The notes under the pieces were generated by a model. The model was not told the origin of the DNA. It ran no database searches and worked only from the letters and a program-made list of their open reading frames with translations. 64,000 nt of DNA from Aldrovandia affinis. Its lineage: Eukaryota; Chordata; Actinopteri; Notacanthiformes; Halosauridae. The position numbers and the translations under genes were made by a program. Shown piece after piece: positions 1,480 to 62,815 of this stretch (position 1 is its first letter; every line of letters begins with the position of its first letter). Location of the stretch: positions 782,506-846,505 of the forward strand of contig JAINUG010000165.1 in assembly GCA_029706075.1 (NCBI GenBank), written 5' to 3'.

Positions 1480-1750
1480 GAACTGAAAAGTTTCCGGTTC
1501 CTTTATAATACTTTGATTTGTGTTTTCGAGTTTATTGTTTTGTGTCCCGAACCCGTGAGGGCGATAGACGAATTCATTTTCTGTTTCAGTTAAAGCTCCC
1601 AGTCTCGTTCTCTGCCCTTGTCTGGGATCAGATAACTTCCCTGACTACAATAAAAATCCGGTCTGTGGACCAGAGAAATCCACTCCGTCTCCAGACTGCT
1701 CGGATCCCGTCCAGGGATTCTCACGTGGCGTGTGACAGTAACATTTTATA
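1480..1750 (+). other. LTR-like segment (possible), between LINE remnant and Tc1
   Basis: A 270-bp stretch has a TATA-like CTTTATAATAC near 1500, an AATAAAA at about 1651 and ends near TGTGACAGTAACA. That order would suit the promoter/poly(A) part of an LTR, but no partner LTR, primer-binding site or pol sequence is adjacent. Tentative only. Confidence 0.2.
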
Positions 1751-9611: not shown

Positions 9612-10021
9612 AGTCCGGCCGCCGTCAGAAGCAAGCCCTCTGCCAGACTGCGGCCTCGCCCATCGCCGCCCTGCCTGTGTAACATTGCTGTTTTGACTTG
9701 TTATAATTACACAGAATCTGTATTCTTTTATTTGTTATTTTCATATGTACATGCGTTTTATTAATTTACTGTAATGGGCTACTGTATATTCACCGGAAAG
9801 ATTTTAGCCCCTCCTTCTGTGAGGTTGCCCTTTATAACTTTGGGTTTTCCCCCCCTCCTCTGCCTCTTTCCGGGGATGTCAAATGTGGAAAGAGCTGGAG
9901 CTGCGGATCAACTAGCTAGCTCGCAATACCGCATGAATAAACGGTCAGAGACCAAAGAAAGAAGTTGTCCGCCTCCTCCTTGGACAAATAATTAAAAATA
10001 CACAACGCAGAAAGACACCGG
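9612..10021 (+). mobile_element. LTR-like segment (possible gypsy 5' end)
   Basis: From TGTAACATTGCTG (9678) to AAAATACACA (10004) the segment has LTR-like order: TATA-like TTTATAACTTTGGG near 9830, AATAAA at about 9936, TG and CA ends. It differs from the LTR at 12096. A primer-binding site is not convincing, so the assignment to the downstream gypsy fragments is uncertain. Confidence 0.4.
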
Positions 10022-11100
10022 TCACACCTGCACTGCCTGCCGTCGTTCAAACAGCCACTTATCTGCTGCACTGCACCACCTGCTGTCGCCCAACAGCCAC
10101 CCGTCTGCTGCACTGCACCACCTGCTGTTGCCCAACAGCCACTTATCTGCTGCACTACACCACCTGCTGTCGCCCAACAGCCACCTGTCTGCTGCACTGC
10201 ACCGCCTGCTGTCGCCCAACAGCCACTTATCTGCTGCACTGCACCACCTGCTGTCGCCCAACAGCCACCTGTCTGCTGCACTGCACCGCCTGCTGTCGCC
10301 CAACAGCCACTTATCTGCTGCACTGCACCACCTGCTGTTGCCCAACAGCCACTTATCTGCTGCACTACACCACCTGCTGTCGCCCAACAGCCACCTGTCT
10401 GCTGCACTGCACCGCCTGCTGTCGCCCAACAGCCACTTATCTGCTGCACTGCACCACCTGCTGTCGCCCAACAGCCACCTGTCTGCTGCACTGCACCGCC
10501 TGCTGTCGCCCAACAGCCACTTATCTGCTGCACTGCACCACCTGCTGTTGCCCAACAGCCACTTATCTGCTGCACTACACACCTGCTGTCGCCCAACAGC
10601 CACCTGTCTGCTGCACTGCACCGCCTGCTGTCGCCCAACAGCCACTTATCTGCTGCACTGCACCACCTGCTGTCGCCCAACAGCCACCCGTCTGCTGCAC
10701 TGCACCACCTGCTGTCGCCCAACAGCCACTTATCTGCTGCACTGCACCACCTGCTGTCGCCCAACAGCCACTTATCTGCTGCACTACACCACCTGCTGTC
10801 GCCCAACAGCCACCTGTCTGCTGCACTGCACCGCCTGCTGTCGCCCAACAGCCACTTATCTGCTGCACTGCACCACCTGCTGTCGCCCAACAGCCACCTG
10901 TCTGCTGCACTGCACCGCCTGCTGTCGCCCAACAGCCACTGCCCGCTGCACCACCTGCTGTCGCCCAACAGCCACCGGCCTACTCCACTGCACCGCCTGC
11001 CGTCGCCCAACAGCCACCGGCCTACTCCACTGCACCGCCCGCCGTCGCCCAACAGCCACCGGCCTACTCCACTGCACCGCCCGCCGCCACTCCACAGTCA
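10022..11100. repeat. 42-bp minisatellite, about 25 copies
   Basis: Unit resembles CTGTCGCCCAACAGCCAC followed by TTATCTGCTGCACTGCACCAC. Two main variants (ACTTATCTG and ACCTGTCTG) partly alternate, and some copies carry CACTACACC, giving a higher-order pattern. One copy near 10578 lacks 3 bases. Toward the right end units diverge (GGCCTACTCCACTG). As 42 is a multiple of three, nearly all frames stay open on both strands; I regard them as artefacts. Confidence 0.95.
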
Positions 11101-11199
11101 TCGGCCTCTCCTGCTGCGCTGCCCCAGCGGCCCAGGCCTCTGTCCTCCAACTGCCCTGCACCGCCGCCAACCACTGAAATGGCTCAGGCTGTCCACGAC

Positions 11200-11745
11200 T
11201 TGTGGCAACGCAGCAGCAAACGGTTTGGACCCCACACAGCAGCAACAGCTGCAAGCAGCTGCTCCGGGAGTACGCCGACAGCTTCGCTGCCGGGGATGAG
11301 GACTGCAAGCGCACGGGGCTGGTCCAACACATCATAGACATTGGCTCTGCCCCGCCCATTCACTTGCGCCCTCGCTAAGCACCAGGGCAGCCCGTGGGCG
11401 GCCCCCGTCATCCTTGTGGGGAAAAAAAAAAACGACAGCTGGGACTTCTGTGTGAACTACCAACGCCTAAATGTGGTGACAAGATAGGGGCTCCTACCCG
11501 CTGCCGCGCATCGACGACGCGTTGGACCACATCAGCGGTTCCAGATGGTTCAGCTCGCTCGACCTGCGGAGCGGCAACTGGCAAGTAGAGCTGGCTCCGG
11601 ACGCCCGGCCCAAAACCGCCTTCACCATCGGGCAGGGGCTATGGCAATTCTGCTTTATGCTGTTTGGGCTCTGCAATGCGCTGGCCACCTTCGAGCGGCT
11701 GATGGAGCGGGTGCTGAGTCACGTCCCCAAGCAGCACTGCACGGG
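11200..11745 (+). pseudogene. Ty3/gypsy reverse transcriptase N-terminal part
   Basis: Translated fragments show DEDCKRTGLVQHIIDIG, then APVILVGKKK, then YPLPRIDDALD and SSLDLRSGNWQVEL with KTAFTIGQGLWQF. These match the fingers and motif A (S-L-D-L) region of Ty3/gypsy RT. An in-frame stop near 11489, frameshifts in the A-run at 11420-11431 and a deletion after HLRPR break it. The frame ends at VLSHVPKQH; the YxDD motif C, RNase H and most of integrase are missing. Confidence 0.85.
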
Positions 11746-16305: not shown

Positions 16306-18216
16306 CTGTCAGGTGGTCATCCGTTCTCCTGCATGATTGTTTGGAAGGGAGTTTGAATAATTATCCAAGTGCCTGGATGAGTCTCAGAAATGTTAATGTT
16401 TTTGCAAAATGTTTTCTTGAACCTGAATTTTTTTAAGTGCATTTAAATTCAATGTTTAAAATCGGAATGTAATAATCATTCAATTCAGTTACAAACCATT
16501 AGTTTCAACGTGGTTGAACTACAGATTAAATTTTTCCACACAATTATCCAATTCAAGCGTTAGAAATTCAATATGATGGCATTCAAATTTGTGGTGGCAA
16601 ATTTCGCTCCATATGTAAATTTGGCTTATAAAAATGATTTTACATGGAATGTTTCATCAATAAAACACATTGTTTGTGCATAAGAAATTGAAATATTTTT
16701 CTTGTGAGGGATATTGAATTTGCCAGTTGTTTTAAGATCTTGCATTTCAAATGGAGCAAATACAACTATTTTACATGAGAATTAGCTGCTTATTGTGGTC
16801 ACATTTTTTCAAGAGTTAAATTAGATTTTGAAAAAAACATCATTACATGGTGGGGGTCTAAAAAACTATACATCATTATTTCATGATTGAGGGGCCAGGC
16901 CCAAGATTTTTACTCTGGTGTACCTAGTATCACAGATGTAACAAATAAAGGAATCAATGTTAATCTGAATTGTTAAATGACATTTATGGAGATAGGGTAT
17001 ACACATAACATACAATAAATACAAGGGTTTATTTCACAGGGACAGTATACAATTTTCAACATGCTTGTTACAGCATCCACTATTTTGTGCCAAAGTCAAT
17101 AAAATAAAAAATAAAATAAAAAACCATAAACATGTCTTAAAATGGTATTAAAAACACAACATTCAAACAAAGTTTGTGTTACTACAAATACTAATTTGTT
17201 ATTCAGGAATATCAGCATTAAACTTGTGATAGACAGATAAGAATAACTTTTATTTTACTCATTACTCCATACAAATAGAAAACATATTTCAGAACTTAAA
17301 TAATAACCTTGTCAAAACTGTCATAATAATGTCAAAGTCATAATAATAAAAATACAGTAATTGTTTTATTTCATTAATGACATTTTACTTTCATAAACAC
17401 ATCCTTGGTAATATTTATTCATTGATGTATTAAAGTATGGGTTTATATTGAACGATATACTTGTCTGACATTAGATCCACAGTATGACATCTGTTAGACA
17501 TGCTTCCATATAGTAGTGTGTTAAACAACCCACTGTATTGCAGGCTGCTGTGGGTGTTGGATAAAGTTTGACAACAACACTAATTTTGTAGAGGTGGGGG
17601 GCATTTTAGGGGCCCTTGAGATTAAAACATTTGGGAACAACTGTTTTATAATTATTATTTTTTAGAAGTGTCCACCGCCCCAAAAAAAAAAACACATCAG
17701 CATCAAATTATCACATGGGGGAAAAAACTGAGAACAAAGAATACGGTAACTGAATTCATTGTGTTACTGAATAAAATGTTTGTCAGATGATGCAGTTGAT
17801 ATAAAAAGTACTCACTGAAATGTAACTGAAAATTGTGTTGTTTCTCATTAACCTTGCATTTTCCCATCACTTCTGCTAACATTACTGGAATCTGTTGGTA
17901 CACTACTTAATCTATATCCCTGATGGTAGCTAGTTTGAATGCATGACATTTATAGGCTACCAGCATTGCCTACATTGACAATTCACAAAATTATATCATG
18001 TGGTGGAGTTATTGTGCAGTAATTGAATGATGGCTTCACCGATGGCAGGGGATCTCTAGACTGCAGTTGGTGTGACTGTAGGGTCTGGCAAGAGGGATTT
18101 TATTCACACACAACACACGTGACACAGCTGCTTGCACAATCGCTGTTCACACTGTACTGCCTGTGACTGTTCACACTGTACTTCAACCTTTTTAATACTC
18201 TCAAATATATCATTTA
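16306..18216 (-). repeat. 3' flank and 3' UTR end of the znf2 unit
   Basis: Same AT-rich flank as at 59899-61250. It includes the poly(A) region, the CACCGATGGCAGGGGATCTC segment, and TTTTTAATACTCTCAAATAT just before the transposon at 18217. A small extra segment near 16885-16950 (GGGGCCAGGCCCAAG) is unit-specific. No coding seen. Confidence 0.75.
18099..18104 (-). promoter_or_regulatory. poly(A) signal of the znf2 unit
   Basis: AATAAA on the minus strand in the conserved GTGAATAAAATCCCTCTT context. A 3.46-kb transposon lies between it and the znf2 stop codon. Confidence 0.55.
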
Positions 18217-18510
18217 TAGTCAGGGAATATTATCAGATATTTGGCCAATCTTGGAATAAATTCCTTACCAAGACATTTCTTCACCAATGTGTTTGCAAAG
18301 GTGTCTAATAATACATATAAAAAGATTTAAATCCAACTCCCATAGGAAAACCTGTGACAGCTGCTGAAAGTTGGGGTACCCGGAACCTTATCTGTGAAAA
18401 ATTGAAAATGTTTATTTCTGCCTTAAGTACCTTGTAAGGGGTCAAACTAGGGGTTTTTCATGATTCTGAATCGATTGCAAGCATTTATTTTGCACTAAAA
18501 TCACTCCTTG
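18217..18510 (+). repeat. left terminal inverted repeat of the TTA-target transposon
   Basis: Pairs with 21392-21674 over nearly its full length with scattered mismatches and small indels. Matching landmarks are ATTCCTTACCA, TTCTTCACCAATGTG, AACTCCCATAGGAAAACC, GGTACCCGGAA and GCAAGCATTTATTTTGC. Confidence 0.88.
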
Positions 18511-19292
18511 ACGTCCACGTCCACCTTTCCCACTCATCGCAAACCCTTTTTTCGTGTGAAAATAAATATGGCTGGATGCATGTAAATTAAAAAGTAGCTT
18601 TATTCGTTTATTTATTCATGTAGTTGCCATGGTAACTTATTGTTTACTGGTAACTGCTGTAGTTGGTTGGCATTCGCAGAAAATGAGTGGTAGGTCCCAG
18701 ACATGCTCAAGCCATTTACAACCCTCTCCTGTGTGGATCATGGACAGACACAATAGACTCCACACATCAAATAACAATATTCACCACTCAGCAAGATACT
18801 GCAAGAAGATTTTACATCTGATATGTAAGTATTATCTACATTTTTTTTACAACTGGAAATATTTCATGTCACTACATTGATAATATGCATATATAAACAA
18901 TATATAAGGTGCGTACTATCATCAAATTATCTTACTTGTTAGCTAGCTAACACCAGGTAACATGGTTAGCTAGCTAACTCCCACTTGTGTATTACATACC
19001 CCAAGTGCATCTGATGACCGTTTTACTTGCTTCATTGCTAGCTGACTGCTTCATGCTAACGTTAGCGAGTTAGCTAGCTAGTTTAAAGTGGTTTCTCTCG
19101 GTTTCTCTAGGGCTTTTTGCAGTTACTGGAAATCTGACCCCCTACTCTCTCCTAAATAAAACACATTAGAGAGAAGATATCTGTCCACATGACAAAGGAT
19201 GCCTTTAATGTTGCAAGAATGATTATGACTGATTTTCGACGAAAAATGAAGTTACTGCCTTTTTCCTTTGTAGAGCATTACAGTCTAGCAGT

Positions 19293-21296
19293 ATGGACAT
19301 AGACATTATTCCTGCACCTCCGCTCAATTGCTTCATCTGTGAAGGCCCGGAGATGCCAGCTCAGAAGCTCGTACAGGCAACTACTAAAGGCTACCCTACT
19401 CTGTTAGCGTATGCAGAAGCAGTTAAAGATGCTACAATTTTGGAGCGCATGAAGGAGGCACAAAATGTCGGAAGACTGAGACATCACATGGAGTGTAGAC
19501 GTGATTTGTACAACAAGTCTGTCCAGGTCACCACAAAGTCAACTCGTGCATCAGAGGCAGAGAAAGAGTCAGCACAGATGAAGAGACGACGCACTTGCTC
19601 TGGGTTCAGTGCATCTACTGTATGCAGTTCTACAAGTTCACGGTCCGTTCAGCTTCTGTACAAGAATGTATGCATTCTTTGCAACCAGCCCGCTCACCTC
19701 TTCCCAAAAAATCCAGAGATTGCTAGAAAGAGATACAGAGTTCCTGACAATTTGACTGCGGATGGACTGAAGACAAGCTTGCTGAAGACAGCACAGGGTC
19801 GCAAGGATGATTGGGGCACTGAAGTCATTAGTCGCCTGGAAGGAATCAACAACTTGATAGCAGAGGAAACCTTATATCATTTGCGCTGCAAAGTTCTTTT
19901 CGAGACGGGTGGTCATTACTCCAAGACTAAAGATGTAGGAAGGAAAACGGATGAGGAGCGAGAGGCTGTTTTCTATGCACTCTGCGAATGGTTAGACTCG
20001 GAACTCGAGCATGGGGTGATGACACTTGACCAAGTCCACGAAAAGCTGCAGCAGTTTGATCAGTCACCAGATAAGAGTCTCTCATATTCAAAGAAGTGGC
20101 TAAAGAAGAAGCTCCTAGGGAAATACCATGACACATTGTATTTCACATCACAGTAGAGGAGGGCAGATGTGCTCTGCCTCAAAGATAAGACCAGCAACAT
20201 TCTGCGAGAGCATCATGCTAATGCTGAGTTTGGAGATGAGAAAACTCAGATCATAAAGACTGCACTAAAGTTCATTTGCAACGACATTGCCACTATTGAT
20301 CTAGATCCAAAGTCATACCCCACTGCACACAGTATGACTGATATCGCTAGTCAGCTGGCACTTGTTCCTGAGAGCCTTCAGATGTTCTTGAGACCGATAG
20401 TGAAGACAGACGAAAGAGTAGCCATTTGTGGGCAGAACTTCATAAAGGCCTATCGGCCTCGGTCAGGGGTATTGCCATACCAAATTGGGCTTGCCGTACA
20501 ACTGGATCATAGATTTGGGTCAAAGTGGATGCTCAACAAGTTACACCGGTTGAGATACACTGAGTCTTACTCAGAGACACAAAGTTACAAATACTGCTTC
20601 CTCAATGACAGGAATGGAGTTGGCATCTCTGATGCTTCTGGCGCTCTTGGTACCATTGTTGAAGAAACTGATGATCAGATTGATCAGATAGATGATGAGG
20701 TTGAGGTTGACGCCGAACTTGAGGATCTATCAGTTATGACAGCCAGTGAAAGTGAAATATAGAGTGACGATCAGGTGGTCTCCATGGAGGTTGGGGATAC
20801 AAGCTCAATCTGTGCAGTCACTCAGTTTGTCGGAGACAATATAGATTTGAACATTGTTTCTATTTATGGGAACACCCCCTTTCATTCAATGGGTTTGATT
20901 AAAGTCACCTCTCCGGCGGCCGGGCTGATCAAACCAGAGACTCTACCTCCAACAGAGGGTGCAGCTGCACAGCATTCTCTCCGTGCCTATCTCCAAACCC
21001 GGGACTGGATGCTGCTGCAGAGCATGTCTTTGGACCCCAGTGACTATGAATGGATGGTAGGGGTTCATGGTTATGAGCCAGTTCCAACACTAAACCCCAT
21101 GGCTCCTGAGGAGCTACTCCGGTTCACAAGCTGTAATTGTAATGGAGATTGCAGCAACCGGCAGTGCAGCTGCAAGAAGAATGGTTTCAAGTGTATCTCA
21201 GCATGTGGAAATTGTAAAGGCATTACATGCAATAATTGTATTCATGATGGTGTAGAGTCTGGAGAAGACTCAGACTTTGACTCATTAAGCATTTGA
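19293..21296 (+). pseudogene. putative transposase with C-terminal CXC domain, two amber stops
   Basis: A 668-codon frame, uninterrupted except for TAG at 20154-20156 and TAG at 20760-20762; no frameshift. N-terminus: Cys/His cluster NCFICEG...HHMECRR (residues about 10-70), then a second, VCILCNQ...YHLRCK (about 127-202). Middle: TDIASQLALVPESLQ, FIKAYRPRSGVLPYQIGLAVQLDHRFGS, and FVGDNIDLNIVSIYGNTPFHSMGLI, the most likely catalytic-core-like stretch. An acidic linker and the C-terminal CXC-like domain (CNCNGDCSNRQCSC...CGNCKGITCNNC, about residues 619-650) follow; that pattern resembles tesmin/TSO1 domains. Similar uncharacterised proteins recur in animal genomes to my recollection, but I cannot name the family. 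Role as transposase is inferred from its position between TIRs. Confidence 0.75.
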
Positions 21297-21391
21297 CATT
21301 GTGGAACAGTATTGTTTTCTAACTAATATTCGAGATATTGAAATAAACTGATAAAGCTACTTTTTCATTTACATGTAAAAGTGGGCGTGGC

Positions 21392-21674
21392 CAAGGAGTG
21401 GTTTTAATGCAAAATAAATGCTTGCAATCAATTCAGAATCATAAAAAAGCCTAGTTTGACCTCTCACAAGCTACCGAAGGCAGAATTAAACATTTTCAAT
21501 TTTTCACAGATAAGTTTCCGGGTACCCCAACTTTCAGCAGCTGTCACGGGTTTTCCTATGGGAGTTGAATTTAATTTTTTTAATATTTGTTATTAGACAC
21601 CTTTACAAACACATTGGTGAAGAAATTTTTTGGTAAGGAATTTATTCCTAGATTTCTTTATATTTCCCTGACTA
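21392..21674 (-). repeat. right terminal inverted repeat of the TTA-target transposon
   Basis: Inverted partner of 18217-18510. The terminal 10 bases (TAGTCAGGGA read inward) are identical. Confidence 0.88.
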
Positions 21675-21677
21675 TTA

Positions 21678-21795
21678 AGACAATTCAATACATATTTTGG
21701 TCAAAAACTGAAGCAACAAAATTTGAAGATATTTTCAGGAGTCTGCCTGTACCTTAATGAATTCTCCACTGCCCGCTTAAACTGAAACACTTCCC
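21678..21795 (-). repeat. znf2 3' UTR (proximal part)
   Basis: Conserved sequence between the transposon and the znf2 stop, containing ATTTTGGTCAAAAA and the CTCCACTGCCCGCTTAAACTG segment shared with the other copies. Confidence 0.7.
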
Positions 21796-22965
21796 TCACT
21801 TCATACATTTGTAGGGCTCATCACCTGCTTGAATTTTCAGGTGGTACTTTAAATGACTGTTTTGGTTAAAACACTTCCCCCACTGAGTACATTTGTAGGA
21901 CTTTTCACCTGTATGAGTCATTTGGTGTTTCCTTAAACTGGATGTGCCGGTAAAACACTTCCCACACTGAGTACATTTGTAAGGCTTTTCACCTGTATGA
22001 ATTTTCAGGTGGGTATTTAAATGAGATTTCGAATTAAAACACTTCCCACACTCGGTACATTGGTAGGGCTTTTCACCTGTATGACTTCTGAGGTGGCGCT
22101 TTAAATTACCTGCTTGGTTAAAACACTTCCCACACTGTGTACATTTGTAGGGCTTTTCGCCTGTATGACTGCTCAGGTGGGATCTTAAATTAATGTATTG
22201 CGTAAAACACTTCCAACACTCAGTACATTTGTAGGGTTTTTCACCTGTATGAATTCTCAGGTGGTACATTAGAGTACCTGCATGGCGAAAACACTTCCCA
22301 CACTGAGTACATTTGTAGGGCTTTTCACCTGTATGAATTCTCATGTGGTACTTTAAACTACCTGCTTGGTTAAAACACTTCCCACACTGAGTACATTCGT
22401 AAGGTTTTTCACCTGTATGAACTTTCAAGTGGTTATTTAAATAAGAATTCCGACTAAAACATTTCCCACACTCAGTACATTTGTAGGGCTTTTCACCTGT
22501 ATGAATTCTCAGGTGGTACTTTAAAGTACCTGCTTGGTTGAAACACTTCCCACACTGTGTGCATTTGAAAAGCTTTTCACCTGTACAAATGATCTCTTGG
22601 TCTTTTAAATTAGATTGCTCATTGATATTCATGGGATCACTCACTAAACTTTCACTGGATTCACACTTAATTTGATCAGATATTATCGTGACACGTTCAA
22701 TATCCTGCAAGTCACTGTCCTGTTCAGTCTTAAGGTAGCCTCCATCATCAGTCTCTGTTTTGATCTGGTCAGGATGCAGGTCTGTGCTGTCGAAGCTCTC
22801 TGTCTTAATAAGATCCCCAGTGTGGGTGGAGCCCAGATCAGTTTCTGTTTTTATCAGTGACGTGTGTGTGTAGTGTAGATCACTGACCCCGCTGTGTGCT
22901 GTAACATACTCTGGCTCCAGTGTGTGGAGTCCTGGTGCAGCACACTTGGTCTCTGACTCTGCCAT
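21796..22965 (-). CDS. znf2: C2H2 zinc-finger protein, 9 fingers
   Basis: 389 aa from MAESETKC at 22965. The N-terminus has the five family psi-K-x-E motifs but lacks about six residues around ELGYVPH. Helix residues -1,2,3,6: QGTY, RSYN, QGSY, HGTY, QINS, QGNR, SSHT, GSSK, and degenerate finger 9 (second Cys is Trp, last His is Gln). Finger 5 has CWKCF instead of CGKCF. Ends with the family tail GDEPYKCMK. Upstream of MAES a T-run is one base shorter than in znf1 (one base lost in the codons for KEEE), putting upstream exon codons out of frame; initiation at MAES avoids this. 3' splice site at 23102. Likely nuclear DNA-binding protein; its 3' UTR is split by the TTA transposon. Confidence 0.87.
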
Positions 22966-34328: not shown

Positions 34329-35765
34329 ATGGCAGAGTCGAGGACCGAGTGTGCTGCACCAGGACTCCTCACACTGGAGCCAGAGTATGTTACAGCACAC
34401 AGCGGGGTCTGTGATCTACACCACACACACACGTCACTGATAAAAACAGAAACTGATCTGGGCTCCACCCACACTGGGGATCTTATTAAGACAGAGAGCT
34501 TCGACAGCACAGAGCTGGGATATGTACCCCACCTGCATCCTGACCAGATCAAAACAGAGACTGATGATGGAGGCTACCTTAAGACTGAACAGGACAGCGA
34601 CTTGCAGGATATTAAACGTGTCATGATAAAATCTGATCAAATGAAGTGTGAATCCAGTGAAAGTTTAGTGAGTGATCTCATGAATATCAATGAGCAATCT
34701 AATTTAAAAGACCAAGAGATAATTCAAGGTGAAAAGCTTTTCAAATGCACACAGTGTGGGAAGTGTTTCAAACAAGCAGGTACTTTAAAGTACCACCTGA
34801 GAATTCATACAGGTGAAAAGCCCTACAAATGTACTCAGTGTGGGAAGTGTTTTCACCAAGCAGATAAATTAAAATGCCACCTGAGAATTCATACAGGTGA
34901 AAAGCCCTATACGTGTACGCAGTGCGGGAAGTGTTTTAGTCGGAAGTCTCATTTAAACAACCACTTGAAAGTTCATACAGGTGAAAAGCCCTACAAATGT
35001 ATGCAGTGTGGGAAGTGTTTTAACCAAGCAGGTAATTTAAAGTACCACCTGAGAATTCATACAGGTGAAAAGCCTTACGAATGTACACAGTGTGGGAAGT
35101 GTTTTAGCCAAGATGCTCATTTAAATACCCACCTGAAAATTCATACAGGTGAAAAGCCTTACAAATGTACTCAGTGTGGGAAGTGTTTTAACTGCACAGC
35201 CAGTTTAAGGAAACACCAAATGACTCATACAGGTGAAAAGCCTTACAAATGTACTCAGTGTGGGAAGTGTTTTAACTGCACAGCCAGTTTAAGGAAACAC
35301 CAAATGACTCATACAGGTGAAAAGCCCTACAAATGTACTCAGTGTGGGAAGTGTTTTAACCAAGCAGGTAATTTAAAGTACCACCTGAGAATTCATACAG
35401 GTGAAAAGCCTTACGAATGTACTCAGTGTGGGAAGTGTTTTAACTGCACAGCCAGTTTAAGGAAACACCAAATGACTCGTACAGGTGAAAAGCCCTACAA
35501 ATGTACTCAGTGTGGGAAGTGTTTTAACTGCACAGCCAGTTTAAGGAAACACCAAATGACTCATACAGGTGAAAAGCCCTATACCTGTTCGCAGTGTGGG
35601 AAGTGTTTTAACCAAGCGGGTAATTTAAAGTGCCACCTGAGAATTCATACAGGTGAAAAGCCCTACAAATGTACTCGGTGTGGGAAATGTTTTAGCCAAA
35701 ACAGTCATTTAAAGTACCACCTGAAAATTCAAGCAGGTGATGAGCCCTACAATTGTATGAAGTGA
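34329..35765 (+). CDS. znf4: C2H2 zinc-finger protein, 12 fingers
   Basis: 478 aa from MAESRTEC. Five psi-K-x-E motifs centre on K39, K54, K75, K85 and K106. Twelve fingers, helix residues -1,2,3,6: QGTY, QDKC, RSHN, QGNY, QAHT, CASK, CASK, QGNY, CASK, CASK, QGNC, QSHY. Finger 9 ends QMTR (last His to Arg) and finger 12 ends KIQ (last His to Gln). The CASK finger occurs four times, a sign of recent internal copying. In frame with the exon's upstream codons (LHSFEQQC...SLSETTLPEL), unlike znf1, znf2 and znf6. Closest relative is znf7, in inverted orientation. Likely nuclear DNA-binding protein; the 3' UTR lacks the family poly(A) signal. Confidence 0.92.
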   Translation: MAESRTECAAPGLLTLEPEYVTAHSGVCDLHHTHTSLIKTETDLGSTHTGDLIKTESFDSTELGYVPHLHPDQIKTETDDGGYLKTEQDSDLQDIKRVMIKSDQMKCESSESLVSDLMNINEQSNLKDQEIIQGEKLFKCTQCGKCFKQAGTLKYHLRIHTGEKPYKCTQCGKCFHQADKLKCHLRIHTGEKPYTCTQCGKCFSRKSHLNNHLKVHTGEKPYKCMQCGKCFNQAGNLKYHLRIHTGEKPYECTQCGKCFSQDAHLNTHLKIHTGEKPYKCTQCGKCFNCTASLRKHQMTHTGEKPYKCTQCGKCFNCTASLRKHQMTHTGEKPYKCTQCGKCFNQAGNLKYHLRIHTGEKPYECTQCGKCFNCTASLRKHQMTRTGEKPYKCTQCGKCFNCTASLRKHQMTHTGEKPYTCSQCGKCFNQAGNLKCHLRIHTGEKPYKCTRCGKCFSQNSHLKYHLKIQAGDEPYNCMK

Positions 35766-38530
<2,765 letters not shown>

Positions 38531-40182: not shown

Positions 40183-42294
40183 ATGGCAGAGTCGAAGACC
40201 GAGTGTGCTGCACCAGGACTCCTCACACTGGAGCCAGAGTATGTTACAGCACACAGCGGGGTCAGTGATCTACACTACACACACACATCACTGATAAAAA
40301 CAGAAACTGATCTGGGCTCCACCCACACTGGGGATCTTATTAAGACAGAGAGCTTCGACAGCACAGAGCTGGGATATGTACCCCACCTCCATCCTGACCA
40401 GATCAAAACAGAGACTGATGATGGAGGCTACGTTAAGACTGAACAGGACAGTGACTTGCAGGATATTAAACGTGTCACAATAATATCTGATCAAATGAAG
40501 TGTGAATCCAGTGAAAGTTTAGTGAGTGATCTCATGAATATCAATGAGCAATCTAATTTAAAAGACCAAGAGATAATTCGTACAGGTGAAAAGCTTTTCA
40601 AATGCACACAGTGTGGGAAGTGTTTCAACCAAGCAGGTACTTTAAAGTACCACCTGAGAATTCATACAGGTGAAAAGCCCTACAAATGTACTGCGTGTGG
40701 GAAGTGTTTTAATCGGAAGTCTAATTTAAATAACCACTTGAAAATTCATACAGGTGAAAAACCTTACACATGTCCTCAGTGTGGGAAGTGTTTTAATCGT
40801 AAGTCTCATTTAGATAACCACTTGAAAGTTCATACAGGTGAAAAACCTTACACATGTCCTCAGTGTGGGAAGTGTTTTAACCAAGCAGGTACTTTAAAGT
40901 ACCACCTGAGAATTCATACAGGTGAAAAGCCCTTCAAATGTACTGAGTGTGGGAAGTGTTTTAACCATGACAGTAATTTAAGGTACCACCTGAGAAATCA
41001 TACAGGTGAAAAGCCCTACAAATGTACTGAGTGTGGGAAGTGTTTTAACCATGCAGGTACATTAAATTACCACCTGAGCAGTCATACAGGTGAAAAACCC
41101 TACAAATGTGCTCAGTGTGGGATGTGTTTTCACCAAGCAGGTCATTTAAAGGGCCACCTGAGAATTCATACAGGTGAAAAGCCCTACAAATGTACTGAGT
41201 GTGGGAAGTGTTTTAATCGGAAGTCTAATTTAAATAACCACTTGAAAATTCATACAGGTGAAAAACCTTACAAATGTAGTAAGTGTGGGAAGTGTTTCAA
41301 CCATGCACGTTCTTTAAGTTACCACCTGAGCAGTCATACAGGTGAAAAGCCCTACAAATGCACACAGTGTGGGAAGTGTTTCAACCAAGCAGGTCATTTA
41401 AAGTGCCACCTGAGAATTCATACAGGTGAAAAGCCCTACAAATGTATTGAGTGTGGGAAGTGTTTTAACCAAGACAGTAATTTAAGGCACCACCTGAGAA
41501 GCCATACAGGTGAAAAGCTCTACAAATGTACTGAGTGTGGGAAGTGTTTTAAACATGCAGGTGTTTTAAATTACCACCTGAACAGGCATACAGGTGAAAA
41601 GCCCAACACATGTACTGAGTGTGGGAAGTGTTTTAATCGGAAGTCTCATTTAGATAACCACTTGAAAGTTCATAAAGGTGAAAAACCTTACACATGTACT
41701 CAGTGTGGGAAGTGCTTTAACCAAGCAGGTACTTTAAAGTACCACCTGAGAATTCATACAGGTGATAAGCCCTTCAAATGTACTGAGTGTGGGAAGTGTT
41801 TTAATCGGAGGTCTAATTTAAATATCCACTTGAAAATTCATACAGGTGAAAAACCTTACACATGTCCTCAGTGTGGGAAGTGTTTTAACCATGCACGTTC
41901 TTTAAGTTACCACCTGAGCAGTCATAAAGGTGAAAAGCCCTACAAATGTACGCATTGTAGTAAGTGTTTTAACCAAGCAGGTACTTTAAAGTGCCACCTG
42001 AGAATTCATACAGATGAAAAACCCTTCAAATGTACTCAGTGTGGTAAGTGTTTTAAACAAGCAGGTACTTTAAAGTGCCACCTGAGAATTCATACAGGTG
42101 AAAAACCCTTCAAATGTACGCATTGTGGTAAGTGTTTTAACCAAGCAGGTACTTTAAAGTACCACCTGAGAATTCATACAGATGAAAAGCCCTACAAATG
42201 TACTCAGTGTGGAAAATGTTTTAGCCAAAACGGTCATTTAAAGAACCACCTGAAAATTCATACAGGTGATAAGCCCTACAAATGTATGAGGTGA
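40183..42294 (+). CDS. znf5: C2H2 zinc-finger protein, 20 fingers
   Basis: 703 aa from MAESKTEC, the largest member. Five psi-K-x-E motifs (fourth is VKTE). Helix residues -1,2,3,6: QGTY, RSNN, RSHN, QGTY, HSNY, HGTY, QGHG, RSNN, HRSY, QGHC, QSNH, HGVY, RSHN, QGTY, RSNI, HRSY, QGTC, QGTC, QGTY, QGHN. All 20 keep both Cys and both His. Order suggests block copying: RSHN-QGTY at 3-4 and 13-14, RSN-HRSY at 8-9 and 15-16. Finger 7 has CGMCF, finger 17 CSKCF. Some linkers vary (KGEKP, TDEKP, TGDKP). Ends GDKPYKCMR. Likely nuclear, with long DNA contact potential. Confidence 0.93.
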   Translation: MAESKTECAAPGLLTLEPEYVTAHSGVSDLHYTHTSLIKTETDLGSTHTGDLIKTESFDSTELGYVPHLHPDQIKTETDDGGYVKTEQDSDLQDIKRVTIISDQMKCESSESLVSDLMNINEQSNLKDQEIIRTGEKLFKCTQCGKCFNQAGTLKYHLRIHTGEKPYKCTACGKCFNRKSNLNNHLKIHTGEKPYTCPQCGKCFNRKSHLDNHLKVHTGEKPYTCPQCGKCFNQAGTLKYHLRIHTGEKPFKCTECGKCFNHDSNLRYHLRNHTGEKPYKCTECGKCFNHAGTLNYHLSSHTGEKPYKCAQCGMCFHQAGHLKGHLRIHTGEKPYKCTECGKCFNRKSNLNNHLKIHTGEKPYKCSKCGKCFNHARSLSYHLSSHTGEKPYKCTQCGKCFNQAGHLKCHLRIHTGEKPYKCIECGKCFNQDSNLRHHLRSHTGEKLYKCTECGKCFKHAGVLNYHLNRHTGEKPNTCTECGKCFNRKSHLDNHLKVHKGEKPYTCTQCGKCFNQAGTLKYHLRIHTGDKPFKCTECGKCFNRRSNLNIHLKIHTGEKPYTCPQCGKCFNHARSLSYHLSSHKGEKPYKCTHCSKCFNQAGTLKCHLRIHTDEKPFKCTQCGKCFKQAGTLKCHLRIHTGEKPFKCTHCGKCFNQAGTLKYHLRIHTDEKPYKCTQCGKCFSQNGHLKNHLKIHTGDKPYKCMR

Positions 42295-42527
42295 AGGAAG
42301 TGTTTTAATTAAGATTCAGTTTAAGTGGGCAGTGGAGAATTCATTCAGGTTTATTCAGGCACAGGCAGACTCCTTAAAGAATCTTAATTTTGTTGCTTAA
42401 ATTCTTGACCCAAATATGTATTGAATTGTCTTAAATGATATATTTGTCAGTATTAAAAATGTTGAACACGGGCAGTACAGTGTGGACAAGGATTGTGCAA
42501 GCAGCTGTGTCATGTGTGTTGTGTGTG

Positions 42528-51376: not shown

Positions 51377-51778
51377 ATGCTAAACTCAGGCTCATGCTAA
51401 ACTATTTTAATCATTTAAGTAATTTATAAATGCTAATTTCTTTCTTTCTTTGAATAAAGCCCAGTTTGCCCATTGGAATCTGAAAAAAATGGCCAGTTAC
51501 CACTGACATCTACCATGGGAAGTGATGTTATATCAGCTAATGCAGGTTTATAGCATTGATGCATGTGTGTGCCAACACACTTCTCTCCTCTGATGCAGTA
51601 GGCCAGTTTGATTGAGGCTAAATCCCTACCCCCGTTTCCCTGCAGGAGCTGCACTTCTGCACAGCTTTGAGCAGCAGTGTGTTGCAAGCAGGAGTTTGAG
51701 ACAACACTACCAGAGCTCACTGAGCAGCACAGGATCAGACAAAAAGAAGAGGAACTCAGTGGACTGGAGTTTGTCCAC

Positions 51779-53218
51779 ATGGCAGAGTCAGAGACCGAGT
51801 GTGCTGCACCAGGACTCCACACACTGGAGCCAGAGTATGTTACAGCACACAGCGGGGTCAGGGATCTACACCACACACACACGTCACTGATAAAAACAGA
51901 AACTGATCTGGGCTTCACCCACACTGGGGATCTTATTAAGACAGAGAGCTTTGACAGCACAGAGCTGGGATATGTACCCCACCTGCATCCTGACCAGATC
52001 AAAACAGAGACTGATGATGGAGGCTATGTTAAGGCTGAACAGGACAGTGACTTGCAGGATATTAAATGTGTCACTATAATATCTGATCAAATGAAGTGTG
52101 AATCCAGTGAAAGTTTAGTGAGTGATCTCATGAATATCAATGAGCAATCTAAATTAAAAGACCACAAGATAATTTGTACAGGTGAAAAGCTTTTCAAATG
52201 CACACAGCGTGGGAAGTGTTTCAGCCATGCAGGTACTTTAAATTACGACCTGAGAATTCATACAGGTGAAAAGCCCTACAAATGTACTCAGTGTGGGAAG
52301 TGTTTTAATCGGGAATCTCAATTAAATAACCACTTGAAAATTCATACAGGTGAAAAGCCTTACAGATGTACTCAGTGTGGGAAGTGTTTTAACCAAGCAG
52401 GTCCTTTAAAATACCACCTGAGACTTCATACAGGTGAAAAGCCCTACAAATGTACTGAGTGTGGGAAGTGTTTTACCCAAGACATTAATTTAAGGTACCA
52501 CCTGAGAAGTCATACAGGTGAAAAGCCCTATAAATGTACTGAGTGTGGGAAGTGTTTTAACCATGCAGGTACTTTAAAGTGCCACCTGAGAAGTCATACA
52601 GGTGAACATCCCTACAAATGTACTGAGTGTGGGAAGTGTTTTAAACAGAAGACTCATTTAAATATCCACCTGAAAATTCATACAGGTGAAAAGCCCTACA
52701 AATGTACCCAGTGTGGGAAGTGTTTTAACCAAGCAGGTACTTTAAAGTACCACCTGAGAATTCATACAGGTGAAAAGCCTTACAAATGTATTCAGTGTGG
52801 GAAGTGTTTTAACTGCACAGCCAGTTTAAGGAAACACCAAATGACTCATACAGGTGAAAAGCCCTACAAATGTACTGAGTGTGGGAAGTGTTTTCACCAA
52901 GCAGCTTCTTTAAAATGCCACCTGAGAAGTCATACAGGTGAAAAGCCCTATACATGTACGCAGTGCGGGAAGTGTTTTAACCGAGCAGATAATTTAAAGT
53001 GCCACCTGAGAATTCATACAGGTGAAAAGCCCTACAAATGTACGCAGTGTGGGAAGTGTTTTAACCAAGCAAGTAGTTTAAAGTACCACCTGAGAATTCA
53101 TACAGGTGAAAAGCCCTACAAATGTACTCAGTGTGGGAAATGTTTTAATCGGGAATCTCAATTAAAGAACCACTTGAAAATTCATACAGGTGAAAAGCCT
53201 TACAAATGTATGAAGTGA
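51779..53218 (+). CDS. znf6: C2H2 zinc-finger protein, 12 fingers
   Basis: 479 aa from MAESETEC. Five psi-K-x-E motifs (fourth is VKAE). Finger 1 is degenerate (second Cys to Arg, first His to Asp). Helix residues -1,2,3,6 for fingers 2-12: RSQN, QGPY, QINY, HGTC, QTHI, QGTY, CASK, QASC, RDNC, QSSY, RSQN. Finger 5 is followed by a TGEHP linker. Ends [10 protein letters not shown] with an intact last His, unlike znf2, znf4 and znf7. The exon begins after the acceptor at 51645; upstream codons carry the same 4-bp deletion as znf1, so MAES is the likely start. Probable nuclear DNA-binding protein. Confidence 0.93.
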
Positions 53219-53451
53219 GGGAAGTGTTTTAATTAAGATTCAGTTTAAGCGGGCAGTGGAGAATTCATTCAGGTTTATTCAGGCACAGGCAGACTCCTTA
53301 AAGAATCTTCATTTTGTTGCTTCATTTTTTTACCAAAATATGTATTGAATTGTCTTAAATGATAAATTTGAGAGTATTAAAAATGTTGAACACGGGCAGT
53401 ACAGTGTGAACAGGGATTGTGCAAGCAGCTGTGTCACGTGTGTTGTGTGTG

Positions 53452-58914: not shown

Positions 58915-61375
58915 TGCTGATATTCCTCAATTTTTAATATTATTCATTTTTTTAATGAAAATAATATTTTTACTTTTTTCTTTTGCAGTACATGGAAAAA
59001 ATGTAAATCCATGAATTAATGTTAAGATGTATTTTGGTGATTTCGCTTATTAATAATATTAATAGGAAGTCTTGGGGACTTAAAGGACACCAAATACAGA
59101 GAATCGCCCACACTCATACACGCGGTTAATCAGTTAAGCAGGTGCTCCACTAAATGTGAAAAACAGGCTAGGTTTAGTTTGTAGTTAAACCTCGTCTGGC
59201 AGTTTAATCCGGCTGGCATGTGCGATGCTTGCGTAACAATGGAAGTTTTCATGAATTAGTTGACACTTTTGATACATTTTACAAATGCTTTAAATCATGG
59301 CCAATACTGCCACCAAAGCCAAAATGGATATCGGTTAAACCTTGATTAGGACAGTTGATGACTAGCTGCGCATAAAGCTATCTGACAGTTATCTGTGTAG
59401 CCGGTGGCATCATAGATATACTGTTTATGCGTAGATGCCGCATTCACCCTGTTCAGATACGTCTGGCTGTGAAAACGGTATGAAGAGGAATTAGCCTATG
59501 CAAAAATGCCACAAAGTTTTTTGTATATTTGTATAACTAAAGCAGCATTTGGTTATACAAATAGGAGAAACCATAGAAGCAAGGCTTGTGGGATAACTTT
59601 TCAAAAGTAAGTGGCAATTTCACTGTCACTTACAGCTGACGTTGAATGAATGACAGATATCACTATGATAACAAAACATAACGTTAGCTAGTTGACAAAC
59701 CATTTGTTAGGCAGGGTGATCCAACTTTCACCCTGGTTCTTAATGTGTATGTGATGGGCAAACATTGATTACTGCATAGCAATACTCCAATTCAATTCTA
59801 TAACACAAACACGATCGGTTACAAAACAATTTGCAGTCAATTCAAGTTGTACTATTTCATGTTGCCAATGGCAGAGGCACTTACTTGCCCAGACTTCTGT
59901 CAGGTGGTCATCCGTTCTCCTGCATGACTGTTTGGAAGGGAGTTAGAATAATTATCCAAGTGCCTGGATGAGTCTCAGAAATGTTAATGTTTTTGGAAAA
60001 TGTTTTCTTGAACCAGAATTTTTTTAAAGTGCATTTAAATTCAATGTTTAAAATCGGAATGTAATAATCATTCAATTCAGTTACAAACCATTAGTTTCAA
60101 CTTTGTTGAACTACAGATTCAATTTTTCCATACAATTATCCAATTCAAGCGTTACAGATTCAATATGCCATTCAAATTTGTGGTGGCACTAATATCACTA
60201 CATATGTAAATTTGGCTTATAAAAGTGATTTTACATGGAACGTTTAATCAATAAAACACATTGTGCACAAGAAATTGAAATATTTTTCTTGTGAGGGATA
60301 TTGAATTGGTAGCCTTTTGCCAGTTGTTTTAAGATCTTGCATTTCAAATGGAGCAAATACAAGTATTTTACATAAGAATTAGCTGCTTATTGTGGTCACA
60401 TTTTTTCAAGAGTTCAATTAGATTTTGAAAAAACATCATTACATGATGGGGGGTCTATAAAATCCAACAATGTTAAATTACATTTATGGAGATAGGGTAT
60501 ACACACAACATACACATACAATACATATATTGGTTTATTTGACAGGGACAGTATACAATTTTCAACATGCTTGTTACAGCATCCACTATTTTATGCCAAA
60601 TTCGATTGTAAAAAAAATACAAGTAAAAAAACAAATAACCATACATGTCTTAAAATGGTATTAAAAACACAACATTCAATCAAAGTTTGTGTAACTACAA
60701 ATACTGATTTGTTATTCAGTAAAAACAAATGGAATATCAGCATTAAACTTGTGAATAAATAGAAAACCTTGTCAAAAGTATCATAATAATAATGTCAAAG
60801 TCATAATAATAAAAAATAAAATAATTGTTTTATTTCATTAATGACATTTATGACAAAACAAAAAACAAAACAAACCCTGAGAACAACAAAGAATATGGTA
60901 ACTGAATTCATTGTGTTACTGAATAAAATGTTTGTCAGATGATGCAGTATATATAAAAGTACTCACTGAAATGTAACTGAAAATTGTGTTGTTTCTCATT
61001 AACCTTGCATTTTCCCATCACTTCTGCTAACATTACTGGAATCTGTTGGTACACCACTTAATCTATATCCCTGATGGTAGCTAGTTTGAATGCATGACAT
61101 TTATAGGCTAGCAGCATTGCCTACATTGACAATTCACAAAATTATATAATGTGGTGAAGTTATTGTGCAGTAATTGAATGATGGCTTCACCGATGGCAGG
61201 GGATCTCTAGACTGCAGTTGGTGTGCAAATATAAATATATCATTTAAGAAAATTCAATACATATTTTGGTCAAAAAATAAAGCAACACAATTTGAAGATA
61301 TTTTCAGGAATCTGCTTGTACCTGAATTAATTCTCCACTGCCCGCTTAAACTGAATCTCAATTAAAACACTTCCC
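58915..61375 (-). repeat. 3' flank of the znf7 unit (longest copy)
   Basis: Inverted relative to 35766-37794 and more complete, including the CTGTCAGGTGGTCATCC region near 59899. Like the znf4 flank it lacks the poly(A)-signal segment (GTTGGTGTGCAAATATAAAT at 61218). No coding seen. Confidence 0.8.
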
Positions 61376-62815
61376 TCACTTCATACATTTGTAGGGCTCA
61401 TCACCTGCTTGAATTTTCAGGTGGTACTTTAAATGACTGTTTTGGCTAAAACATTTCCCACACCGAGTACATTTGTAGGGCTTTTCACCTGTATGAATTC
61501 TCAGGTGGTACTTTAAATTACCTGCTTGGTTAAAACACTTCCCACACTGCATACATTTGTAGGGCTTTTCACCTGTATGAATTCTCAGGTGGCACTTTAA
61601 ATTATCTGCTTGGTTAAAACACTTCCCGCACTGCGTACAGGTATAGGGCTTTTCACCTGTATGACTTCTCAGGTGGCATTTTAAAGAAGCTGGTTGGTGA
61701 AAACACTTCCCACACTGAGTACATTTGTAGGGCTTTTCACCTGTATGAGTCATTTGGTGTTTCCTTAAACTGGCTGTGCAGTTAAAACACTTCCCACACT
61801 GAGTACATTTGTAAGGCTTTTCACCTGTATGAATTTTCAGGTGGATATTTAAATGAGCATCTTGGCTAAAACACTTCCCACACTGTGTACATTCGTAAGG
61901 CTTTTCACCTGTATGAATTCTCAGGTGGTACTTTAAATTACCTGCTTGGTTAAAACACTTCCCACACTGCATACATTTGTAGGGCTTTTCACCTGTATGA
62001 ACTTTCAAGTGGTTATTTAAATGAGACTTCCGACTAAAACACTTCCCGCACTGCGTACACGTATAGGGCTTTTCACCTGTATGACTTCTCAGGTGGCATT
62101 TTAAAGAAGCTGCTTGGTGAAAACACTTCCCACACTCAGTACATTTGTAGGGCTTTTCACCTGTATGAGTCATTTGGTGTTTCCTTAAACTGGCTGTGCA
62201 GTTAAAACACTTCCCACACTGAGTACATTTGTAAGGCTTTTCACCTGTATGAATTCTCAGGTGGGTATTTAAATGAGCATCTTGGCTAAAACACTTCCCA
62301 CACTGTGTACATTCGTAAGGCTTTTCACCTGTATGAATTCTCAGGTGGTACTTTAAATTACCTGCTTGGTTAAAACACTTCCCACACTGCATACATGTGT
62401 AGGGCTTTTCACCTGTATGAATTCTCATGTGGTCTTTTGAATTAGATTGTTCATTGATATTCATGAGATCACTCACTAAACTTTCACTGGATTCACATTT
62501 CATTTGATCAGATATTATCGTGACACGTTTAATATCCTGCAAGTCACTGTCCTGTTCAGTCTTAAGGTAGCCTCCATCATCAGTCTCTGTTTTGATCTGG
62601 TCAGGATGGAGGTGGGGTACATATCCCAGCTCTGTGCTGTCGACGCTCTCTGTCTTAATAAGATCCCCAGTGTGGGTGAAGCCCAGATCAGTTTCTGTTT
62701 TTATCAGTGACGTGTGTGTGTGGTGTAGATCACTGACCCCGCTGTGTGCTGCAACATACTCTGGCTCCAGTGTGTGGAGTCCTGGTGCAGCACACTCGGT
62801 CTCTGACTCTGCCAT
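61376..62815 (-). CDS. znf7: C2H2 zinc-finger protein, 12 fingers with a 5-finger duplication
   Basis: 479 aa from MAESETEC at 62815. Five psi-K-x-E motifs in the N-terminus. Helix residues -1,2,3,6: QGNY, QAHT, CASK, QASC, RSHN, QGNY, QAHI, CASK, QASC, QDNC, QGNY, QSHY. Fingers 1-5 and 6-10 are successive copies of a 420-bp block. The usual first finger (KLFKC) is missing; [15 protein letters not shown] follows the N-terminus directly. The last finger ends KIQ (His to Gln). Upstream exon codons ([10 protein letters not shown]...[10 protein letters not shown]) are in frame to 62952, where the acceptor lies. Probable nuclear DNA-binding protein, sister of znf4. Confidence 0.93.

Follow-up and report, generated by a model that had tools for sequence, protein, structure and literature searches.

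A deletion derivative in the halosaur Aldrovandia affinis and its likely placement in a new family of Academ transposons

Does a Cys/His-rich frame enclosed by long inverted repeats, with TTA on either side, define a DNA transposon superfamily of its own? The question is raised by positions 18217-21674 of a 64,000-nucleotide stretch of the Aldrovandia affinis genome (contig JAINUG010000165.1; this whole stretch is called the window here), for which an earlier, sequence-only reading had proposed a separate or poorly described superfamily with a TTA target duplication. We find that the element is indeed a transposon but that neither the superfamily claim nor the TTA rule holds. The locus is very probably an internally deleted copy, moved in trans, of a new family of Academ belonging to the AcademX lineage.

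The element is a multicopy transposon with long inverted ends and TTA flanks, whose termini are TAGTCAGGG at 18217 and CCCTGACTA at 21674. The inverted arms (18247-18528 and 21377-21654) share 89.4% identity across 282 columns (E = 1.6e-103), the 11 terminal bases are identical at both element ends, and an extra pair of 35-bp arms joins 18579-18613 with 21341-21375. Five paralogous zinc-finger units elsewhere in the window carry the site uninterrupted, with a single TTA (at about 30740, 53356, 42432, 61243 and 35897), and the last two of them have less left flank in common with the element; at least four such empty sites had been claimed. Long inverted ends, a 3-bp duplication and empty sites are thus all found, as expected of a DNA transposon with terminal inverted repeats (TIRs). 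Its ends are laid out as follows.

18214-18216 (unstranded): left copy of the target duplication TTA, from the sequence, the empty sites and the 3-bp rule of the other copies
18217-18528 (plus strand): left TIR, from self-comparison of the window
18579-18613 (plus strand): left subterminal 35-bp arm, paired with 21341-21375
21341-21375 (minus strand): right subterminal 35-bp arm
21377-21674 (minus strand): right TIR
21675-21677 (unstranded): right copy of the target duplication TTA, from the sequence, the empty sites and the other copies

A search of the 1.22-Gb host genome with the left TIR gave at least 42 matches with 40 of 114 candidates scored, a minimum for the count of ends (across the genome DNA searches for copies, 40 of 114 and 40 of 116 candidates were scored). 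Among the 17 copies with both ends present, TAGTCAGGG is exact at 33 of 34 ends, the left end of C1754 having two changes. An exact 3-bp repeat flanks 16 of these copies, comprising 12 different trinucleotides (TTA three times; AAA and GTA twice each; TAT, CAG, TAC, CCC, ACA, CTC, GAG, CAA and TGA once each), and a 4-bp match is seen as well in one; the remaining copy, C2244:2530357-2532927, is flanked by no repeat. In a control of slid 3-mer comparisons, 4 of 204 match (one right flank has five known bases). Four of the 17 (C2122, C36, C136 and C1754) are 8.4-10 kb long and may hold nested insertions. Because 3 bp of 12 kinds are repeated in nearly every copy, the target rule is 3 bp of variable sequence, and TTA is the window copy's own target. 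The TTA reported on both sides of the window copy is therefore there, but as a rule it falls to the 13 of 16 duplications that are not TTA.

The same count bears on an assignment to PIF/Harbinger, which favors TTA/TWA targets, or to Kolobok, which favors TTAA. The TTA flanks of the window copy and two others would suit such an element, but 13 of 16 duplications are not TTA, and a set of 3-bp duplications of varied sequence does not agree with a TTAA target. The long helical insertion and the fused XPG-type nuclease predicted below also argue against it, as do the accessory nucleases of Kolobok, which are of other types (lambda-exonuclease-like, His-Me and DnaQ) in the accessible text of a published account (PMC9587614). 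We consider this assignment extremely improbable.

What, then, does the frame encode? The single 668-codon frame described between the TIRs does span 19293-21296, but two in-frame TAG codons interrupt it, and it arose by an internal deletion. The deletion follows from the copy C136:1966339-1974766 (8,428 bp, TTA duplication), which is 96.6% and 93.5% identical to the window copy on either side of 2.77 kb that are absent at window position 20917. Upstream of the frame, C136 has a further 2.3 kb that the window copy is without. Its coding region is spread over two main frames and is broken once in the N-terminal part; a short intron is likely near its end. The frame of the window copy can be divided as follows.

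19293-20153 (plus strand): N-terminal part of the transposase frame, up to the TAG at 20154-20156
19329-19496 (plus strand): first Cys/His cluster, of the CxxC ... HxxC type, from the sequence and the consensus majority of alignment A2
19671-19889 (plus strand): second Cys/His cluster (CxxC ... HxxC), from the sequence and alignment A2
20157-20759 (plus strand): middle part of the frame, up to the TAG at 20760-20762
20763-21293 (plus strand): last piece of the frame, with its stop at 21294-21296, in which the start of the putative DDE core is fused to the C-terminal tail
20835-20837 (plus strand): first aspartate codon of the predicted catalytic triad (DNIDL motif), from the alignment
20917-20918 (plus strand): deletion scar, at which 2.77 kb of C136 (predicted second D, E and nuclease) are gone
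21132-21239 (plus strand): C-terminal CXC domain with nine spaced Cys, from the sequence and near-invariant Cys columns in A2

The Cys/His clusters and the CXC domain had already been pointed out in the sequence-only reading, and both recur in the sequence and in alignment A2. Judging from their residues, both clusters likely bind zinc; for the CXC domain, the relative P0105 has a weak preSET_CXC match (E = 0.32) below the cut-off.

AlphaFold models and structure searches, with a sequence profile as well for the nuclease, predict that the missing part encodes the rest of a DDE transposase triad (second D and E) and a nuclease of the XPG/FEN1/EXO1 type. The modeled core has an RNase H fold with a D...D...E arrangement, its E preceded by a large helical insertion. 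Next comes the nuclease, whose predicted EXO1/FEN1/XPG fold covers residues 631-959 of the P0039 model and includes the acidic motifs. The predicted first aspartate is present in all 41 alignment rows with a residue there, and it is the only member of the predicted catalytic triad that the window copy keeps. A comparison with DDE/RNase H folds, suggested for the original frame, thus has a divided outcome: full-length relatives fit the predicted core, but the window copy retains only its start. The absence of recognizable Harbinger blocks, noted in the sequence-only reading, carries less weight, since the window copy has lost the known transposase blocks. Scans against Pfam and NCBIfam, run on the window pieces and on close relatives, produced no match above the cut-off, Foldseek with the core model returned no significant match, and single-sequence PDB searches yielded nothing significant, mostly designed ankyrin proteins. 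No helicase family occurs among the Pfam matches of the 7 + 6 relatives scanned.

At the level of the fold only, the predicted RNase H core, in which a large helical insertion precedes the last catalytic Glu, resembles those of the P element and Hermes (hAT), which have 8-bp duplications and are not known to carry a nuclease domain of the XPG kind. The putative nuclease of the window family's relatives is likewise similar to EXO1/FEN1/XPG 5' nucleases in predicted fold and acidic motifs but differs in being fused behind the transposase core and followed by the CXC domain.

The nuclease of Academ is of the XPG type. The family most likely belongs to Academ, and within it to AcademX, because the predicted DDE core, the predicted XPG-type nuclease and the 3-bp duplication fit the published description of AcademX, a placement made by description. 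In the accessible text of that description, AcademX has target site duplications of 3 or 4 bp and AcademH of 9 or 10 bp, a difference tied to the encoded helicase and nuclease (PMC10045372). The duplications, the TIRs and, by predicted model, the RNase H-fold core and the nuclease all agree with AcademX; the 9- or 10-bp duplications and helicase of AcademH do not agree with what we find. As in AcademX, a nuclease stands beside the transposase, both being predicted in one protein, whereas the TAGTCAGGG ends and the many deletion and fold-back derivatives set the window family apart. Academ, which the sequence-only reading had listed among the matches that would make this a known family, is therefore the favored assignment. 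The view that this is an undescribed superfamily of its own, specific for TTA targets, could draw on the lack of Pfam or NCBIfam families above the cut-off in the close relatives scanned and on a distant tie to DUF6589 only. We regard it as unlikely, however, given that the target varies, with TTA in 3 of 16 duplications, and that the combination of DDE core, nuclease and 3-bp duplication is the one published for AcademX, as far as the accessible text goes. A literature search for a TTA-target fish transposon or DUF6589 found no paper, and one on Academ with XPG or an Academ nuclease found, among the papers listed, nothing recognizably on transposons of such a kind.

In the proposed mechanism, binding to the TIRs or to the target would fall to the two Cys/His clusters near the N terminus, perhaps together with the CXC domain. 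The DDE core would make 3-bp staggered cuts, and the flap-type nuclease would process ends or gaps when the element is excised or inserted. Full-length copies would supply the DDE transposase that cuts and pastes the window copy in trans, the window copy being most likely a nonautonomous deletion derivative.

How did such derivatives come to be common? In a survey of 68 loci, in which copies beyond those counted are not scorable at the deletion point, the scar of the window copy is common to C2233, C2045 and C36 and also, with an additional loss, to C1668. Sixteen other copies have a remnant of 266-315 bp at the deletion point (284 bp in 11 of them). In the four of these 16 that were read, the remnant is made up of both ends of the missing part, from which it appears that the remnant copies stem from a larger first deletion; the second deletion has five bases common to both of its sides. 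Among the copies scored, the full middle part is found in only 2 (C136 and C1754), versus 21 with shared deletion scars. Since the breakpoints are common to many copies, the derivatives likely multiplied after arising, with transposase supplied by other copies. In a further set of fold-back derivatives (C2244:9116856-9121717, L012/L062; C1691, L017/L063; C335, L011/L064), the left 1.49 kb, frame start included, is repeated in inverted orientation in place of the right end; the arms of about 1.49 kb are 90-96% identical, and the inner junction is the same in all three. The C335 sequence examined ends about 11 terminal bases short, and this derivative has an open frame of 758 codons.

That last frame raises the possibility that a shortened protein has been retained by selection as a transposition repressor or a host gene, for which the KP type of P element is the model. 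Both shared deletions preserve the reading frame and what are likely the DNA-binding Cys/His and CXC parts, which would be consistent with this idea. The two stops in the window copy and the pattern of substitutions point the other way. In 35 aligned rows of 541 codons (three palindromic places give two rows each, and the window copy and two long copies are included), we counted single-base departures from the majority codon, a stand-in for the ancestor that makes the test a rough one. Private changes comprise 164 replacement, 69 silent and 16 stop changes (omega about 0.88; 10.1 stops expected), and shared changes comprise 70 replacement, 28 silent and 3 stop changes (omega about 1.12; 3.2 stops expected). 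Stops are not scarce, and the leftover frame evolves, by this measure, close to neutrally. On this pattern we reject a functional short protein, and we judge retention by selection to be quite improbable. The frame of the window copy is a remnant in decay, from which no active transposase is expected.

The distant relatives link this family to a domain of unknown function. With a cut-off of 27 bits, DUF6589 (PF20231) is matched by two of six distant relatives, P0082 (41.1 bits) and P0084 (31.9 bits), and P0071 falls just below it (26.1 bits); the window pieces and the seven close relatives scanned have no match. P0084, from a sea urchin, is 23% identical to C136 over 1,086 columns. As these distant full-length relatives match above the cut-off, DUF6589 is suggested to be a piece of the transposase core. 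In public records, pieces of the transposase (P0002, P0053 and P0063) are named 'Leucine--tRNA ligase', 'Polyserase-2' and 'Tesmin/TSO1-like CXC domain-containing protein'.

Much closer relatives come from other phyla. Identity to the C136 protein is 90.1% for a protein of the hagfish Myxine (563 columns), 88.0% for one of the rotifer Seison (576 columns) and 82.0% for one of the octocoral Paramuricea (634 columns), but 74.4% (844 columns) and 75.2% (797 columns) for two proteins of the icefish Chaenocephalus. Overall, P0003, P0032, P0044 and P0018 (from hagfish, Seison and Paramuricea) are 76-90% identical to C136, P0003 (76.5%) representing a second hagfish lineage elsewhere in the same clade. 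In a FastTree phylogeny of 37 sequences, all of these proteins fall into a single shallow clade, whose inner branches are short and modestly supported. The lineages of halosaur, hagfish, rotifer and octocoral parted more than half a billion years ago, and, because identities of 82-90% persist between such hosts, vertical descent would seem to need extreme conservation. From protein comparison, the sole basis of this lead, we lean slightly toward a recent horizontal spread of the AcademX clade between marine animals of at least three phyla (teleosts including the halosaur, hagfish, rotifer and octocoral). Contamination is possible, above all for the Seison and Paramuricea records, because these sequences sit on contigs 4-6 kb long. 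Three scans of viral contigs found no carrier: the P0035 pattern gave two matches, neither a relative, and the P0047 and TIR patterns gave none. The literature search found no report of horizontal transfer in Academ in the accessible texts.

Elsewhere in the window, paralogous zinc-finger arrays with 84-bp repeat units lie in both orientations (21785-22965 on the minus strand, 34617-35840, 40470-42470, 51600-53300 and 61279-62450), and the transposon adjoins one of these units. An inverted pair of 624 bp (37090-37713 and 58996-59619) is 99% complementary, more alike than the zinc-finger paralogues, and is perhaps a young repeat or recent duplication. A tandem array with a 42-bp period occupies 9951-11251; by eye, a LINE-like reverse transcriptase remnant is recognizable at 1-1300, followed by a Tc1-like transposase stretch at about 1740-2600. 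A lone TAGTCAGGGAA at 1637-1647 (minus strand) is near chance level: the window has three matches with at most one mismatch, against a shuffle mean of 0.99 and three or more matches in 7 of 100 shuffles.

With these results, an unannotated fish repeat family gains a likely superfamily. The locus also illustrates how a deletion can mimic a new superfamily, as the diagnostic domains are exactly what the window frame has lost. If DUF6589 is a piece of the DDE core, proteins now called DUF6589 or uncharacterized could be recognized as transposon derived. The part worth following is the cross-phylum clade, which, if its similarity is not due to contamination, would be a case of horizontal transfer in Academ.
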